From Dysgonomonas sp. Marseille-P4677 (GTDB lineage Bacteria > Bacteroidota > Bacteroidia > Bacteroidales > Dysgonomonadaceae), in the NCBI RefSeq assembly GCF_016652235.1, contig NZ_JAEPKU010000015.1, forward strand, positions 1 through 51,428: 51,428 bases of DNA, written 5' to 3'. Of the stretch, positions 11,082 to 30,982 are shown one piece after another. Position 1 is the first letter of the stretch. Every line of letters begins with the position of its first letter. Position numbers and translations under genes: made by a program. Under the pieces are notes generated by a model that saw only the letters and a list, made by a program, of their open reading frames with translations, was not told the DNA's origin and searched no databases.

Positions 11082-11873
11082 TTACTTATCCAACTCTTTA
11101 TCTGCAATATTCTGTCTGGCTTTAGTCAGAAATTGTAACATAGCAGTACTATCTTTGTTCTCTATTATCTCTAAAAGTAATTTAAGCTCTTTACGAATGC
11201 CTTCTACCTGTGCAGGTGTGTATGGATTGAATAATATTTCGGTCAACAAGTAATCATCTTCGGAAAGCAATCCTTTAGCAATATCCATATGACGCTTAAA
11301 TGTTGTGCCCGGAGCTTCCTGATGTTTCATTACCGAAGTAAAGACAAGAGTAGAAGCAAAAGGAATAGAAAGAGAATACGCAATAGTCTCGTCATGCTCT
11401 TCAAAGGTGTATTCAAATACTCTCAGGTTGAGGCTATTATATAAATTTAAGAAAAACTCTTTTCCTTTAGGGCTTGATTCTGATATGACAATAGCACTTT
11501 GAGTGCTCAGATTGCGTAAATCTGCAAAAGTAGGGCCAAACATAGGATGTGATGAAGCAAACGGTTGGTCTACTGTTGCATAAAATTCTTTCAACCCTGT
11601 TTTCACAGATGCAATATCAGAGATTATACAATCTTTACTAATATAAGGCAATATCGTTTTAAAAGCATCAATCGTATACTTTACCGTAGCTGCATTGATA
11701 ACCAACTCCGGATTGAAATCGGCAATCTCCCTTGGATCACTCATCCGTACTGTATTGTATATAAATCTCAACTTTTGAGGGTCTACATCAAATACAGCCA
11801 GTTCGTGATCGAAACTTAAAACATCGCCAAAAAAAGATCCCATTTTTCCGGCACCGAGTATCAAAATTCTCAT
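11082..11873 (-). CDS. tyrA: Prephenate dehydrogenase
   Basis: A 263-residue enzyme that oxidises and decarboxylates prephenate to 4-hydroxyphenylpyruvate, the tyrosine branch point. The N-terminal Rossmann motif is ILGAGKMGSFFGDVL (residues 4-18), with an acidic residue in AVFDVDP for NAD binding. The family motifs IISDIASVKTGL, FASSHPMFGPT and the helical C-terminal dimerisation half are present. It has no ACT domain, so this polypeptide shows no obvious tyrosine feedback site. It is separated by about 15 kb from the pheA-aroF operon with which tyrA is commonly clustered in Bacteroidales (from memory). It has its own candidate promoter. Confidence 0.88.
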   Translation of the reverse strand: MRILILGAGKMGSFFGDVLSFDHELAVFDVDPQKLRFIYNTVRMSDPREIADFNPELVINAATVKYTIDAFKTILPYISKDCIISDIASVKTGLKEFYATVDQPFASSHPMFGPTFADLRNLSTQSAIVISESSPKGKEFFLNLYNSLNLRVFEYTFEEHDETIAYSLSIPFASTLVFTSVMKHQEAPGTTFKRHMDIAKGLLSEDDYLLTEILFNPYTPAQVEGIRKELKLLLEIIENKDSTAMLQFLTKARQNIADKELDK

Positions 11874-26057: not shown

Positions 26058-26801
26058 ATGAATAAAAGACATGTTCTATACATCTTTATAACTATCACCT
26101 TGACAGCCATTCTTTGTGGAGGGCTATATATAGGTTTTACCAACGGATATATCCGCATGAACTATCCATCATTCGAGAATTATCCGGTGCAAGGCATTGA
26201 TGTTTCTCACCATCAACAGAAAATAAATTGGGGTAAACTGGATAAAAAGGCTGTTCAGTTCGCATTCTTAAAAGCTACTGAAGGAGGAAATCATAAAGAT
26301 TCCATGTTTCAAGAAAACTGGAGAGAAGCCATCCATCATAATATTCCTGTTGCGGCCTATCATTTTTTCACCTTTTGTAAAGATGGAGAGGAACAAGCCC
26401 GCAACTATATCCATTATGTTCCTAAAGACAGCATTGATCTTCCGCCTATTATCGATCTTGAATATGGGGGAAACTGTGCAATTGAAAATCGTAAAGAAGA
26501 CTTAATCTCTGAAATAGAAAAATATTTCGAAATTATCGAGGACCACTATCAGAGAAAGGTTATAATTTACACAACGAACGAGTTTTATAAGAACTATTTG
26601 ATAAATCAATTCCCGGAAAATCCCATATGGATACGTGATATACTATCCGAGCCTAACCTCCCTGATGGGCGCAATTGGATGTTTTGGCAATTTACAAACA
26701 AAGGAAAACTCGAAGGTATCAATACCCCTGTCGACTTAAATGCTTTTAATGGAAGTAGAGAGGAATTTGAGAAACTACTAATAATTAAGGAGGAGCAATA
26801 A
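26058..26801 (+). CDS. GH25 lysozyme-like muramidase
   Basis: A 247-residue protein with an N-terminal membrane segment (about residues 6-28; signal anchor or signal peptide) followed by a GH25 domain. Motifs include VQGIDVSHHQQKINWGKL, FAFLKATEGGNHKDSMFQEN, VAAYHFFTFC and PPIIDLEYGGNC. The Asp/Glu of GIDVSHHQ and of IIDLEYG correspond to the GH25 catalytic carboxylates. It would cleave beta-1,4 bonds in peptidoglycan, acting in the periplasm for wall remodelling. No phage or lysis genes are beside it. Confidence 0.9.
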   Translation: MNKRHVLYIFITITLTAILCGGLYIGFTNGYIRMNYPSFENYPVQGIDVSHHQQKINWGKLDKKAVQFAFLKATEGGNHKDSMFQENWREAIHHNIPVAAYHFFTFCKDGEEQARNYIHYVPKDSIDLPPIIDLEYGGNCAIENRKEDLISEIEKYFEIIEDHYQRKVIIYTTNEFYKNYLINQFPENPIWIRDILSEPNLPDGRNWMFWQFTNKGKLEGINTPVDLNAFNGSREEFEKLLIIKEEQ

Positions 26802-26946: not shown

Positions 26947-26976
26947 CTTGTTTTATTCAAAAAATTATTACTTTTG
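26947..26976 (+). promoter_or_regulatory. pheA operon promoter (-33 CTTG, -7 TACTTTTG)
   Basis: CTTG (26947-26950), an 18-base spacer and TACTTTTG (26969-26976) match the Bacteroidetes consensus with one change in the first element. Transcription should start near 26982, so the leader before pheA would be about 185 bases and a terminated transcript about 170 bases. Confidence 0.65.
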
Positions 26977-27005
26977 CATCTATAATCATAACAAAGGTTA
27001 TTAGA

Positions 27006-27065
27006 ATGAAGAACTTTTCTTATACATACTTTTTCTTTTTTTACTTTTACTTTTTTAGAAGGTAG
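27006..27065 (+). CDS. Phe/Tyr-rich leader peptide of the pheA operon
   Basis: A 19-codon ORF encodes MKNFSYTYFFFFYFYFFRR: 8 Phe (codons 4, 9-12, 14, 16, 17) and 4 Tyr (codons 6, 8, 13, 15). Seven of the eight Phe codons are TTT. The stop TAG at 27063-27065 is one base before the antiterminator 5' arm. AAAGG at 26993-26997, 8 bases upstream, is a weak ribosome-binding site. It resembles enterobacterial pheL in logic, with no sequence relationship needed. It should act in cis as a sensor of charged Phe- and Tyr-tRNA and have no function as a product. Confidence 0.85.
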   Translation: MKNFSYTYFFFFYFYFFRR

Positions 27066-27066
27066 A

Positions 27067-27127
27067 ACAGGATTTTGTATGAGAAAATTGAAAGTTAAGT
27101 AAAACAATCAGATATATAGAATCCTGT
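27067..27127 (+). promoter_or_regulatory. Antiterminator RNA helix of the pheA leader
   Basis: ACAGGATTTTGTATG (27067-27081) can pair with TATATAGAATCCTGT (27113-27127): 15 consecutive pairs, 12 Watson-Crick and 3 G-U, with a 31-base loop. Its 3' arm contains most of the terminator 5' arm, so the two structures exclude each other. A ribosome at the leader stop codon would cover most of its 5' arm, while one stalled at Phe codons 9-16 would leave it free. Confidence 0.75.
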
Positions 27128-27150
27128 CAAGTATGACAGGATTTTTTTTT
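27120..27150 (+). terminator. Attenuator (rho-independent terminator) of the pheA leader
   Basis: AATCCTGTC (27120-27128) and GACAGGATT (27135-27143) form a 9-bp stem with a 6-base loop, followed by a run of seven further T. It lies 17 bases upstream of the pheA start and after the operon promoter, so it can only be a regulated terminator. Confidence 0.85.
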
Positions 27151-27167
27151 GAGAATAACATAACAAC

Positions 27168-28010
27168 ATGAAAAAAGTAGCCATACAAGGAGGATTAGGA
27201 GCATATCACGGTATTGCAGCAGAGAATTTCTTTGGGGAAGAAGTAGAAATAGTACCATGTATCACATTCAGGGATATCTTTTCTACTATAAGGAAAGATC
27301 CCAACACAATAGGTATAATGGCTATAGAAAACACTATTGCCGGAAGCCTACTTTGTAACTACGAATTGTTAAAAGAAAGCAAACTTCCTATCGCCGGAGA
27401 GTATAAGCAACGTATATCACACTGTATCGCTGCGCTACCCGGACAATCAATCCATGAGATAAAAGAAGTACAATCTCATCCCATTGCTTTGATGCAATGC
27501 ACCAGCTACTTAGACACATTACCGGGTATTAAAATAGTTGAGCATGAAGATACGGCACTTGCAGCAAAAGATATTGCGGAAAAACAATTGACTGCTACCG
27601 CTGCAATATGTAGTGTTAGAGCTGCCGAAATTTATGGACTTAATATACTGGCGAGAGGAATTGAAACGAACAAGCACAATTTTACTCGCTTTCTTGTTTT
27701 TGGAAATAAGTGGATCACACAAGAGATTCAGATAGACGAGGTTTTGAACAAATCATCGATTGTATTTACCACACCTCACGATGAAGGAAGTTTGTCTAAA
27801 GTTCTCTCTGTATTTTCTTTTTATGGTATCAATCTGACCAAAATCCAGTCGCTGCCTATTATTGGACGCGAATGGGAATATCAGTTTTATGTAGATCTTA
27901 CATTTTCAGACCTAGAACGCTATCATCAATCTTTAGATGCAATTCGCCCTCTCACTAGCGGACTTCAGATACTGGGAGAATATCCCGAAGGCAGACAAAG
28001 TGAATTATAA
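27168..28010 (+). CDS. pheA: Prephenate dehydratase
   Basis: A 280-residue monofunctional enzyme converting prephenate to phenylpyruvate. The catalytic domain (about residues 1-180) has YHGIAAENFF, AIENTIAGSL and HNFTRFLVFG with the catalytic Thr-Arg-Phe. An ACT domain follows (about 195-275). The ESRP motif used for Phe binding in E. coli reads QSLP here, and GALV reads EGSL, so Phe feedback may be weak or use other residues. No chorismate mutase is fused; that activity sits on the DAHP synthase of this operon. The operon is controlled by the upstream attenuator. Confidence 0.92.
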   Translation: MKKVAIQGGLGAYHGIAAENFFGEEVEIVPCITFRDIFSTIRKDPNTIGIMAIENTIAGSLLCNYELLKESKLPIAGEYKQRISHCIAALPGQSIHEIKEVQSHPIALMQCTSYLDTLPGIKIVEHEDTALAAKDIAEKQLTATAAICSVRAAEIYGLNILARGIETNKHNFTRFLVFGNKWITQEIQIDEVLNKSSIVFTTPHDEGSLSKVLSVFSFYGINLTKIQSLPIIGREWEYQFYVDLTFSDLERYHQSLDAIRPLTSGLQILGEYPEGRQSEL

Positions 28011-28045: not shown

Positions 28046-29212
28046 ATGAATATAATTCCGGCAGATCGCCTCAATACTTTTAGTGAATATTACTTCTCTA
28101 CCAAATTGAAAGAAGTAGCTGAAATGAACGCCGCAGGCAAGAATGTTATTAGTTTGGGTATCGGTAGCCCCGACCTGCCTCCTTCTGAAGAAACTGTTAT
28201 AGCCTTAAATGAATCGGCCTCAAAAAGCGATACACATGGCTACCAACCGCACGTGGGTATTCCCGAATTAAGAAAAGCATTTACAGACTGGTATGCAAGA
28301 TGGTATGGAGTTAAGCTTGATTCGGCAAAAGAAGTACAGCCATTAATAGGATCTAAAGAAGGTATTCTACATATATCACTTGCATTTCTAAATCCGGGAG
28401 ATGGAGTATTAGTCCCTAACCCAGGCTATCCTACCTATACATCGGTAAGCAAACTGGTAGGTGCGACAATTCAATCTTATAATCTGGATGAAAATAATGA
28501 TTGGCAACCGGACTTTGAGGCTCTTGAAAAGATGGATCTATCCAAAACTAAATTAATGTGGGTAAACTACCCGAATATGCCAACCGGAGCAAATGGCTCT
28601 TTAGAACTGTTCAGAAAGTTGGTTGACTTCGGGAAAAAGCATAATATTGTCATAGCACACGATAATCCTTATAGCCTTATCTTAAATGAAAGCCCAATCA
28701 GCATATTGCAAATCGAAGGAGCGAAAGATATTTGCGTCGAACTCAATTCGATGAGTAAATCCCACAACATGCCGGGATGGAGAATTGGAATGGTAGCATC
28801 TAATCCTCAATTCATTCAATGGATATTAAAAGTATTAAGTAACATAGAAAGTGGTATTTTAAAACCAATGCAATTAGCGACTGTTGCTGCACTTAACAAT
28901 TCGGATGAGTGGCACAAAAAGAATAACATTGAACTATATGCCAGCCGTCGTCAATATGCAGAAAATATAATGACTCAGCTTGGTTGCACTTTTGATAAGA
29001 GCCAGGTAGGTATGTTTCTTTGGGGTAGGATACCTGATCATTACAAGAATAGTGAAGAGCTTGCCGATAAGATATTATATGATGCAAATGTATTTCTTAC
29101 ACCCGGATTCATTTTTGGAGATAAAGGAGATAGATATATTCGCATATCACTTTGCTGCAACGAAGAAATGTTGAGAGAAGCATTACAAAGAATAAAAAAG
29201 ATACAATCTTGA
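28046..29212 (+). CDS. Class I/II PLP aminotransferase, aromatic operon member
   Basis: A 388-residue PLP enzyme. The lysine motif is SMSKSHNMPGWRIGM, and other fold-type I motifs are PNPGYPTYTSV, NYPNMPTGANGS and a final YIRISLC with the carboxylate-binding Arg. Homologues are labelled aspartate or LL-diaminopimelate aminotransferase. Its place between pheA and DAHP synthase-chorismate mutase suggests transamination of phenylpyruvate and 4-hydroxyphenylpyruvate to Phe and Tyr. It lies 35 bases after pheA. Confidence 0.88.
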   Translation: MNIIPADRLNTFSEYYFSTKLKEVAEMNAAGKNVISLGIGSPDLPPSEETVIALNESASKSDTHGYQPHVGIPELRKAFTDWYARWYGVKLDSAKEVQPLIGSKEGILHISLAFLNPGDGVLVPNPGYPTYTSVSKLVGATIQSYNLDENNDWQPDFEALEKMDLSKTKLMWVNYPNMPTGANGSLELFRKLVDFGKKHNIVIAHDNPYSLILNESPISILQIEGAKDICVELNSMSKSHNMPGWRIGMVASNPQFIQWILKVLSNIESGILKPMQLATVAALNNSDEWHKKNNIELYASRRQYAENIMTQLGCTFDKSQVGMFLWGRIPDHYKNSEELADKILYDANVFLTPGFIFGDKGDRYIRISLCCNEEMLREALQRIKKIQS

Positions 29213-29223
29213 AATACAAACTT

Positions 29224-29889
29224 ATGGAAATGGTAAACTACGACACATTACTAGAGAAGCATGCAGGTATCGCTTTTGAGAAACAATACAATCTGGCTGA
29301 GATAATCGGTGAAAATAACTGGGAGATAGATATGAGTACCGGACTTATATATTTCGGTGACGAACTCAAGTTCCCGATGCAGATACTAGGCTCCTATTCT
29401 TTCGATTCGGGAACATGGCTATGGGCATGGGCAAATGAAGCCTCTAATATTCCTGACAGCCTACTTATAGAGACAAACAGGCTAAAAGAAATAGGAGAAA
29501 CCTATAATATTGAGTTCCTTACTATGCCTGAATATAACATGGAACCAACTGATGTCCATGCACTCGGATTAATTGCATCGGGTGAATTTAATTCGAGCGC
29601 TTATTATGCAGGAAACTATGGCAACGGTATCCTATTGCTTACGTTGAAAGATGAATCGATAGAGAATGTACCTTATAATGAGCAATTACGCATATTAAGC
29701 ATATATCCGGAAATAATTTCAAACTTCGCTATAAACCACAGAAGAACGTTTAAGAACTATCTGGATTCTAAAGGATATAGCATACAAGAAGAAGGAAATA
29801 AGCTAACAACGAATAAAGGAGAAGGCCTGATATCAGCTGAATTCGATGACATGGACCGATTAGTCAAAATAAATGGAGAAGCAAAATAA
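29224..29889 (+). CDS. DUF6882-like cytoplasmic protein inserted in the aromatic operon
   Basis: A 221-residue protein with no signal or membrane segment. I start it at ATG 29224, since the longer frame from 29152 runs through the end of the aminotransferase gene; ATG 29230 is an alternative. The central GTWLWAWANEASNIP segment is typical of DUF6882, as is the overall alternating strand/helix pattern. Function is unknown. It lies 11 bases after the aminotransferase and 31 before the DAHP synthase gene, so it is co-transcribed. It is not a standard aromatic-pathway gene. Confidence 0.65.
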   Translation: MEMVNYDTLLEKHAGIAFEKQYNLAEIIGENNWEIDMSTGLIYFGDELKFPMQILGSYSFDSGTWLWAWANEASNIPDSLLIETNRLKEIGETYNIEFLTMPEYNMEPTDVHALGLIASGEFNSSAYYAGNYGNGILLLTLKDESIENVPYNEQLRILSIYPEIISNFAINHRRTFKNYLDSKGYSIQEEGNKLTTNKGEGLISAEFDDMDRLVKINGEAK

Positions 29890-29920: not shown

Positions 29921-30982
29921 ATGAAACTAGATTCAATTTTACTACCGGGCATAGACCCTAAACGTCCTTTGGTTATAGCAGGCCCTTGCAGTGCCGAAAC
30001 CGAAGATCAGGTAATGAATGCAGCAAAGCAACTATCAGCCAATGGCATTAAGATATTACGTGCAGGCATATGGAAACCCCGTACCAAGCCGGGAGGATTT
30101 GAAGGTGTTGGAAGCGAAGGCCTTGCTTGGCTAAAGAAAGTAAAACAGGAAACAGGCATGTATGTATCGACTGAAGTCGCTACACAGAAGCATGTTTATG
30201 AAGCATTGAAATATGGTGTGGATGTACTTTGGATCGGTGCTCGTACAACTGCTAACCCTTTTGCTGTACAGGAGATCGCAGAAGCGCTACAAGGTGTAGA
30301 CATTCCAGTATTAGTAAAGAACCCTGTAAACCCAGATCTTGAGTTATGGATAGGAGCTTTAGAACGCCTGAGCAATGTAGGGTTAACTAAGCTTGGTGCC
30401 ATTCACCGCGGATTTAGCTCGTATGATAAGAAGATTTATCGGAATCTTCCTCAATGGCATATACCTATCGAATTGAAACGCCGCTATCCTGATCTTCCAA
30501 TCATTTGTGACCCTAGTCATATTGGAGGAAAACGTGATCTAATTCAACCGCTTTCGCAACAGGCTATGGATCTTAACTTCGATGGATTGATAATAGAGAG
30601 CCATTGCGATCCTGATAATGCTTGGAGTGATGCTTCACAACAAATTACCCCTATCAGATTGAATGAAATCTTAGATGGATTGATCATCCGTGATAGCAAA
30701 CAATCCACAGAAGACTTATCTGCCCTACGCAGACAAATAGATGAACTGGATGATCAGCTATTGGAATTACTTGCAAAGCGTATGCGTATTTCATGCGAAA
30801 TAGGTACTTTCAAGAAGGAGCACAATATGACCATCGTACAAACAGACCGTTATGACGAAATACTTCACAAACGCATAGCTCAAGCAGAAGGGATGGGTAT
30901 GAACCCGGAGTTTATGCGAGTAGTATTAGAAGCAATACACGAAGAGTCTGTCAGAAAACAAATAGATATATTAAATAAGTAA
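29921..30982 (+). CDS. DAHP synthase-chorismate mutase fusion
   Basis: A 353-residue bifunctional enzyme. Residues 1-260 form a KDO-8-P-synthase-like (type I-beta) DAHP synthase: VIAGPCSAETEDQVM, GIWKPRTKPGGFEG, CDPSHIGGKRDLI and ESHCDPDNAWSDASQQ. Residues about 265-353 form an AroQ-type chorismate mutase: LRRQIDELDDQLLELLAKRMRI, then EIGTFKKEHNM. It catalyses the first shikimate step and the Phe/Tyr branch step. The C-terminal position of the mutase is the Bacteroidetes arrangement, as in Porphyromonas. In the B. subtilis enzyme the mutase is N-terminal. The operon ends here at a strong terminator. Confidence 0.93.
   Translation: MKLDSILLPGIDPKRPLVIAGPCSAETEDQVMNAAKQLSANGIKILRAGIWKPRTKPGGFEGVGSEGLAWLKKVKQETGMYVSTEVATQKHVYEALKYGVDVLWIGARTTANPFAVQEIAEALQGVDIPVLVKNPVNPDLELWIGALERLSNVGLTKLGAIHRGFSSYDKKIYRNLPQWHIPIELKRRYPDLPIICDPSHIGGKRDLIQPLSQQAMDLNFDGLIIESHCDPDNAWSDASQQITPIRLNEILDGLIIRDSKQSTEDLSALRRQIDELDDQLLELLAKRMRISCEIGTFKKEHNMTIVQTDRYDEILHKRIAQAEGMGMNPEFMRVVLEAIHEESVRKQIDILNK

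Follow-up and report, generated by a model that had tools for sequence, protein, structure and literature searches.

A Candidate Phe/Tyr Leader-Peptide Attenuator Upstream of pheA in Dysgonomonas and Other Bacteroidales

On comparative sequence evidence, the pheA operon of Dysgonomonas sp. Marseille-P4677 is very probably controlled by ribosome-mediated transcription attenuation through a leader peptide built largely of Phe and Tyr. A preliminary description of this DNA had proposed such a Phe/Tyr leader-peptide attenuator of pheA, and the proposal gains support from conservation, from compensatory base changes, and from a match between leader codons and operon content. The pheA leader would represent the classic E. 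coli-type mechanism in a version that lacks an Rfam model; the kind is known, and this member is new. What is surprising is its reach, a natural codon swap, and the recurrence of tandem copies, more than the mechanism.

Layout of the Leader and the pheA Operon

The window (the whole stretch of DNA analyzed, 51,428 nt) is a single contig of a 4.73-Mb Dysgonomonas genome. Its relevant features are listed here, with the evidence for them in parentheses.

11082-11873, - strand: tyrA, prephenate-dehydrogenase-like (weak PF02153 match), remote from the pheA operon and on the opposite strand
26058-26801: glycosyl-hydrolase-25 gene; the leader sits between its end and pheA
26948-26950, + strand: TTG, putative upstream (-33) promoter element (sequence; relatives)
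26969-26976, + strand: TACTTTTG, putative Bacteroidetes-type -7 element (TAnnTTTG in 81/82 relatives)
27006-27065, + strand: leader ORF MKNFSYTYFFFFYFYFFRR with its stop codon, 19 codons, 8 Phe and 4 Tyr (sequence; ORFs in relatives)
27015-27026, + strand: segment 1, within the leader ORF, partner 27076-27087 (fold; covariation of its counterpart, in the register that most relatives share; swap test)
27046-27066, + strand: inner hairpin, in which 27046-27054 (last Tyr/Phe codons) pairs with 27058-27066 (stop-codon region) (fold; synonymous-codon test; weak covariation)
27067-27081, + strand: segment 2, 5' arm of the antiterminator (fold; covariation; string kept across reading frames)
27076-27087, + strand: 3' side of the 1:2 helix, sharing bases with segment 2 (fold; covariation)
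27113-27127, + strand: segment 3, 3' arm of the antiterminator and also 5' arm of the terminator (fold; covariation)
27118-27145, + strand: predicted intrinsic terminator stem, 12 pairs (terminator prediction; 98.6% of cells paired in the alignment)
27142-27150, + strand: run of nine T of the terminator (sequence)
27168-28010, + strand: pheA, prephenate dehydratase (Pfam PF00800, E 1.3e-53)
28046-29212, + strand: class I/II aminotransferase (Pfam PF00155)
29224-29889, + strand: DUF6882 protein, ATG at 29224 (Pfam PF21813, query from 29227; relatives)
29921-30982, + strand: DAHP synthase-chorismate mutase (Pfam PF00793 and PF01817)

Gene content around pheA differs among relatives. In G009 and G289, a tyrA homologue sits downstream of pheA, following DAHP synthase, and G009 also carries a DUF6882 gene within its aromatic operon. 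The slot corresponding to 29224-29889 holds an acetyltransferase gene in several relatives and in G019 (locus L010) is too short to contain one.

The Leader ORF and Its Promoter

The 19-codon ORF with eight Phe and four Tyr codons reported in the preliminary description is borne out as MKNFSYTYFFFFYFYFFRR at 27006-27065. First-order resamples of the region yielded an ATG-initiated ORF with at least 8 F/Y in 9 residues once in 4,000 trials, and the observed 9/9 F/Y core in none of 4,000. The AT-richness of the region would favor a chance origin, in which a T-rich stretch merely reads as Phe codons beside the ordinary terminator of the upstream gene; we assign this a negligible probability, since the resamples fail to match the core and the comparative data below, with their conservation and covariation, contradict it. 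Across relatives, F or Y fills 627 of the 664 residues of an eight-codon core (378 Phe and 249 Tyr), with Ser at 26. F and Y swap for each other along the core, the length and ends of the leader vary, and non-aromatic preferences are confined to few positions, for example a basic residue near the end.

The two-element promoter noted earlier holds up as well: TTG at 26948-26950 and TACTTTTG at 26969-26976, which fits TAnnTTTG, both recur in relatives. We take the TAnnTTTG consensus to be the Bacteroidetes-type -7 promoter element. Of the 82 relatives tested, 81 have it within the 75 nt that precede the leader ATG, against 6.2 expected from first-order resamples. Among the 81 relatives having the motif, it lies 33-39 nt ahead of the leader ATG in 68, and a TTG stands 14-24 nt 5' of it in 70. 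Transcription would start at about 26982-26988. A general sigma-70 scan, whose range does not extend to this promoter type, found no promoter at the leader and gave sites at the chance rate (9 versus 9.3).

Conservation and Spread of the Leader

The leader is conserved well beyond the genus. We examined 102 pheA loci, corresponding to 88 distinct upstream regions, and found an aromatic-rich leader ORF in 84 of the 88, with a terminator hairpin behind the ORF in all 84. The other four comprise L055 and L097, which have no more than 50 nt of upstream DNA, and L101 and L102, which have no leader at all. An order-wide sample of 119 genomes contained PheA in 53 and a TyrA-like match in 61; exclusion of G133, where pheA lies at a contig end, left 52 pheA upstream regions. 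An F/Y ORF followed by a terminator occurs in 43 of these 52, compared with 1 of 208 resampled controls. Nine of the 52 fail our strict detector, among them G125, G076, G044, and G297, in which an F/Y-rich ORF is present and the terminator rule failed. In a class-wide sample, visual reading found ORF and terminator in 19 of 40 pheA upstream regions, two of which (L130 and L150) were not positioned at the gene start.

A covariance model built from the pheA leaders was searched against 295 genomes of the order, giving matches at E no greater than 0.001 in 121 genomes and at 60 bits or more in 54; matches below about 45 bits were taken as probable chance. As read by eye from ORF starts, the next gene at the best 30 loci in the order is pheA in 23 and the pathway's aminotransferase in 3, with a contig edge in 4, a bias toward positions before pheA that is partly by construction since the model derives from pheA leaders. 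The leader peptide is hydrophobic and conserved, as a small working peptide would be (a hydrophobic membrane peptide, say, or one resembling a type I toxin) whose proximity to pheA is incidental. Such a peptide has only a very slight probability in our judgment, as all 26 of the best covariance loci with downstream sequence precede pheA or the pathway's aminotransferase, the ORF overlaps covarying helices, and Tyr is few or absent where pheA stands alone (see below).

Three Covarying Helices

The preliminary description had proposed a two-structure design, of which the antiterminator and terminator stand; the alignment backs a full set of three helices, 1:2, 2:3, and 3:4. The 15-bp antiterminator is present exactly as described, with 15 pairs between 27067-27081 and 27113-27127, and its 3' arm is indeed shared with the 5' side of the terminator, 27113-27127 overlapping the stem at 27118-27145. 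On paper, the two structures exclude each other. The leader stop codon (27063-27065) ends one base 5' of the antiterminator, in line with the earlier remark that the two abut. A terminator with its T-run (T27142-27150) is likewise there; its stem is 12 pairs long, and the 9 bp given earlier are its core. By sequence-based criteria, this intrinsic terminator lies between the leader ORF and pheA. Overlooked at first were the 1:2 helix, pairing 27015-27026 with 27076-27087, and an inner hairpin, pairing 27046-27054 with 27058-27066. The leader RNA as a whole folds better than 200 of 200 shuffles (z -3.39).

Alignment of pheA upstream regions, which the preliminary description had suggested, shows the F/Y ORF and the antiterminator and terminator arms conserved beyond the genus with compensatory changes. 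The alignment has 83 rows, an identical row (L017) having been dropped. Cells are paired in 98.6% for the terminator, 87.4% for the antiterminator, and 86.4% for the 1:2 helix, with both-side changes at 6 of 12, 5 of 10, and 7 of 10 pairs, respectively. One compensatory change in the 1:2 helix turns a Thr codon, ACA, into the Ala codon GCA, with the partner base going from U to C. The counts of both-side changes were equaled by 16 of 500 shuffles for the terminator, 15 of 500 for the antiterminator, and 3 of 500 for the 1:2 helix, and the covariation score of each helix was reached by none of 500. These scores also exceed those of versions slid along the alignment: 0.432 versus at most 0.172 for the terminator and 0.211 versus at most 0.096 for the 1:2 helix. 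For the antiterminator, the margin on this score is thin (0.209 versus at most 0.179), and the share of paired cells is 87.4% versus at most 49.2%.

Furthermore, the duplexes became weaker when pairing partners were exchanged between the 30 sequence clusters, from -13.7 kcal/mol (own) to -10.4 kcal/mol (swapped) for 1:2 and from -19.5 to -16.0 kcal/mol for 2:3; none of 20,000 permutations equaled the own pairing of either (p 5e-5 each). In leaders that have lost the stop codon, the string ACAGGATTTTGTATG is kept but translated in differing frames (TGFCM or QDFV), and it is therefore maintained as RNA and not as peptide.

The inner hairpin at 27046-27066 covaries weakly, with 153 of 500 shuffles reaching its score and both-side change at 1 of 4 pairs. 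Codon choice supports the hairpin: of 83 relatives, 79 have TAC as the last Tyr codon of the leader, compared with 114 of 229 earlier leader Tyr codons and 51 of 213 Tyr codons in 13 window genes. In a synonymous-codon test, 29 of the 30 clusters gave the hairpin a lower energy than the mean of random versions. The hairpin, formed with the stop region, may act as a polymerase pause signal.

Predicted Folding and a Proposed Switch

We folded the leader with a translating ribosome masking part of the RNA, its leading edge assumed to lie 16 nt from the start of the P-site codon. Stalling at each of six tested positions, from F4 to F17, gives the full 15-bp antiterminator at -16 to -21 kcal/mol (free RNA, before segment 4), and a ribosome at the stop codon destroys it, leaving just -1.3 kcal/mol in the masked fold. 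These modeled folds agree with the earlier suggestion that a stalled ribosome would free the 5' arm of the antiterminator and a ribosome finishing the peptide would hide it. Untranslated RNA with polymerase at 27088 adopts the 1:2 structure (-20.8 kcal/mol), segment 3 being still unmade. At equilibrium and without a ribosome, RNA extending to 27127 would fold as the antiterminator and not as 1:2, so that termination of an untranslated leader requires 1:2 to persist once segment 3 has emerged. The terminator is preferred over the antiterminator in every fold of the full-length RNA, and the decision of the switch must thus be kinetic.

In the mechanism that we propose, RNA polymerase would start at about 26982 and transcribe the leader ORF with a ribosome trailing behind. 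When charged tRNA is plentiful, the ribosome would presumably complete the peptide and cover segment 2, leaving segment 3 to pair with segment 4 and the transcript to end near 27150. Uncharged tRNA-Phe or tRNA-Tyr would stall the ribosome within the aromatic run and leave segment 2 free; should segment 2 then pair with segment 3 ahead of the synthesis of segment 4, polymerase would read through into pheA, the aminotransferase, the DUF6882 gene, and DAHP synthase-chorismate mutase. If the leader is left untranslated, segment 1 may pair with segment 2 before segment 3 exists, favoring termination. The trp attenuator terminates when its leader is untranslated. Translation of the leader, termination, the response to Phe and Tyr supply, and the timing of these steps are what we infer from the conserved parts and predicted folds.

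Leader Codons Track Operon Content

Mixed Phe and Tyr codons had been thought to suit an operon of pheA, an aminotransferase, and DAHP synthase-chorismate mutase. Pfam confirms these genes, and codon content follows operon content among relatives. Operon content came from tblastn searches with the window proteins, the first module was counted where a genome has two, and pheA was called solo when no aminotransferase, DAHP synthase, or TyrA followed it within the 2-3 kb examined. Leaders precede solo pheA in five genomes from four families (G038, G112, G047, G463, and G057), with 0, 1, 0, 0, and 0 Tyr, respectively, in the core and 0, 1, 2, 0, and 0 in the whole ORF. Joint operons have at least two Tyr in 37 of 38 cores (the exception, G080, has one) and in 38 of 38 whole ORFs. 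The contrast between solo leaders with 0-1 Tyr and joint leaders with at least 2 is significant for cores (5/5 versus 37/38; Fisher p 6.2e-6, kinship ignored) and for whole ORFs (4/5 versus 38/38; Fisher p 4.1e-5, kinship ignored). Solo pheA genes of G296, G121, and G088 had no leader in the order-wide scan.

The same relation is seen within one family, where G038 and G288 differ in their leaders as codon sensing predicts. G038 has split operons: its tyrA leader (L194), MNNTFGYYAFYYYFFYNN, has six Tyr and four Phe, and its pheA leader (L195) is Phe-only. In G047 and G296, the leaders of aminotransferase-led operons contain five Tyr and four Phe. Leaders of the tyrA-led operons of G057 and G463 contain more Phe than Tyr, and a second leader at the joint operon of G086 (not a module by our strict rule) has one Tyr, so leader codons do not map simply onto genes. 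Tracking of operon content by codon identity is nevertheless what codon sensing predicts, and it supports the attenuator reading.

The TnaC peptide arrests the ribosome with tryptophan, and the pheA leader peptide might similarly stall it when a small molecule binds, be it free Phe, free Tyr, or some other. Conservation of the leader at the amino acid level, with its few non-aromatic preferences such as the basic residue near the end, would suit arrest of this kind. We consider it improbable: F and Y interchange in the core, length and ends vary, composition follows operon content, and the string after the stop is kept across reading frames, hence as RNA. Codon-sensing attenuation remains the reading that we favor.

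Tandem Copies and Other Leaders

Two complete Phe/Tyr modules stand before pheA in 6 of the 52 order-wide upstream regions (G107, G340, G043, G373, G030, and G119). Beyond that sample, G103 and G334 also have two modules, and the covariance model finds both. These tandem loci (L175, L176, L191, L210, L222, L229, L271, and L272) come from several families of the order. A second aromatic ORF with an unconfirmed terminator is found in G422, G314, and G077 (L172, L179, and L202). Both tandem copies contain Phe and Tyr codons, inspection by eye showed no division of labor between them for Phe and Tyr, and the window has a single copy.

The same Dysgonomonas genome carries further candidate leaders, each with a terminator: a His leader, MYNKAHHHHLLLLPKGE, before hisG (L321 and L342); a Trp leader, MSFLLTNTFWWWHSQLKKS, before trpB-trpE (L337); and a branched-chain leader, MTNCFLHVLILNILLVGLNK, before ilvD (L344). 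Starts of the His and Trp leaders are internal ATG codons picked by analogy with relatives. A Thr leader was sought before aspartokinase-homoserine dehydrogenase in seven regions; in the five that reach the gene start, neither a terminator nor an adjacent ORF rich in Thr/Ile was present.

A second Phe/Tyr leader in this genome, MNNLSFTYGFYYFYPKDKSRVNL, with TAnnTTTG and a terminator, lies ahead of a stand-alone GNAT acetyltransferase gene (L188:673-1367, equivalent to G000 contig 250, 17672-18366; 57.3 bits with the covariance model). A homologue of this acetyltransferase occurs in other genomes of the family: within the pheA operon, between aminotransferase and DAHP synthase, in G010, G017, G003, and G289, and before DAHP synthase in G024. 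Together, its own Phe/Tyr leader and the homologues within pheA operons of relatives suggest a link of the acetyltransferase to the Phe/Tyr regulon.

More tentatively, these leaders may belong to a genome-wide set of Bacteroidales attenuators for Phe/Tyr, His, Trp, and branched-chain amino acids, a reading that we find plausible and still somewhat doubtful. In such a set, the coding run would form part of the switch RNA, the inner hairpin that holds the last Tyr at TAC may make polymerase wait for the ribosome, and the serial Phe/Tyr attenuators of several families may sharpen the response or lower its leak. If so, transcription and translation would be tightly coupled at these leaders.

Discussion

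The pheA leader is a well-supported candidate cis-regulator of aromatic amino acid synthesis that lacks an Rfam model, in an order to which major gut bacteria belong. Leaders of solo pheA genes, with few Tyr codons or none, amount to a natural codon-swap experiment. In addition, the leader can help assign genes to the Phe/Tyr regulon, the acetyltransferase being an example. Bacteroidota mostly lack Shine-Dalgarno sites, and the proposed mechanism would imply close coupling of transcription and translation at a leader in this phylum, which a reporter built on the leader makes directly testable.

No Rfam family matches at its gathering score in the window or in the leaders of 10 pheA loci, which were among 16 loci searched. 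Phe_leader (RF01859), the family of the enterobacterial pheL-pheA attenuator, gives the pheA leader 17.1 bits, below its gathering score of 55. No T-box reaches its gathering score in the window or the 16 loci, and the His (L321) and ilvD (L344) leaders match no Rfam family at that level. A terminator and antiterminator taken alone would also fit a different device acting on the same terminator, such as a T-box or a protein-bound antiterminator, with the ORF secondary. We regard this as highly improbable in light of the Rfam searches of the window and 10 pheA loci and of leader codons that vary with operon content. Attenuation by the Phe/Tyr leader peptide accommodates both.

The region also matches a described RNA weakly. 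BTnc231 (RF04180) is a B. thetaiotaomicron sRNA whose expression was confirmed on Northern blots, as reported in the transcriptome article (PMC7366714). As the possible pheA leader of Bacteroides it was rejected: the region scores 14.7 bits against a gathering score of 80.4, the order-wide matches, in 11 of 119 genomes, are all below the cut-off, and none of the ORFs listed at 13 such loci is PheA-like (by eye, first 45 residues). A 2010 work by Lopatovskaya may cover Bacteroidetes. Among the matches listed from open-access literature, outside which most subscription papers fall, none describes a Bacteroidales pheA attenuator.

Related elements have been described. In the B. thetaiotaomicron transcriptome article, short ORFs within long 5' UTRs are likened to leader peptides (PMC7366714). 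For Flavobacterium psychrophilum, a 2021 study presents structured 5' elements that stand ahead of pheA and hisG and have no Rfam match, and it speaks of "strong clues" for leader-peptide attenuation of amino acid operons (PMC9723704). Its pheA element resembles ours in standing before pheA and matching no Rfam family and differs in coming from another bacterial family, Flavobacteriaceae; the passages of that study on the pheA element give no leader peptide for the gene and no codon or covariation analysis (PMC9723704). Bacteroid-trp (RF01692), the Bacteroidete tryptophan peptide leader RNA, is listed as cis-regulatory in Bacteroidetes by Weinberg 2010 (PMC2864571). That family matches the Trp leader L337 of the Dysgonomonas genome (50.8 bits; gathering 49) and the Trp leader of G103, and it has no match at the pheA leader in the window or the 10 pheA loci; it shares with the pheA leader the phylum and the kind of leader and differs in operon and codons.

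A close counterpart is the enterobacterial pheL-pheA attenuator, which likewise has a Phe-rich leader peptide followed by an antiterminator and a terminator before pheA, whereas the leader described here mixes Phe and Tyr codons in front of an operon serving both amino acids. Enterobacterial trp and his attenuators, as set out in PMC1183508, share the segments I:II, II:III, and III:IV and the regulatory codons. The likeness lies in the design, and here two aromatic amino acids would be sensed jointly. The tandem attenuators of Salmonella mgtCBR, in the account of PMC3641672, similarly place two leader-ORF attenuators in series; those respond to two different signals, whereas the tandem copies in relatives of Dysgonomonas each carry both Phe and Tyr codons.
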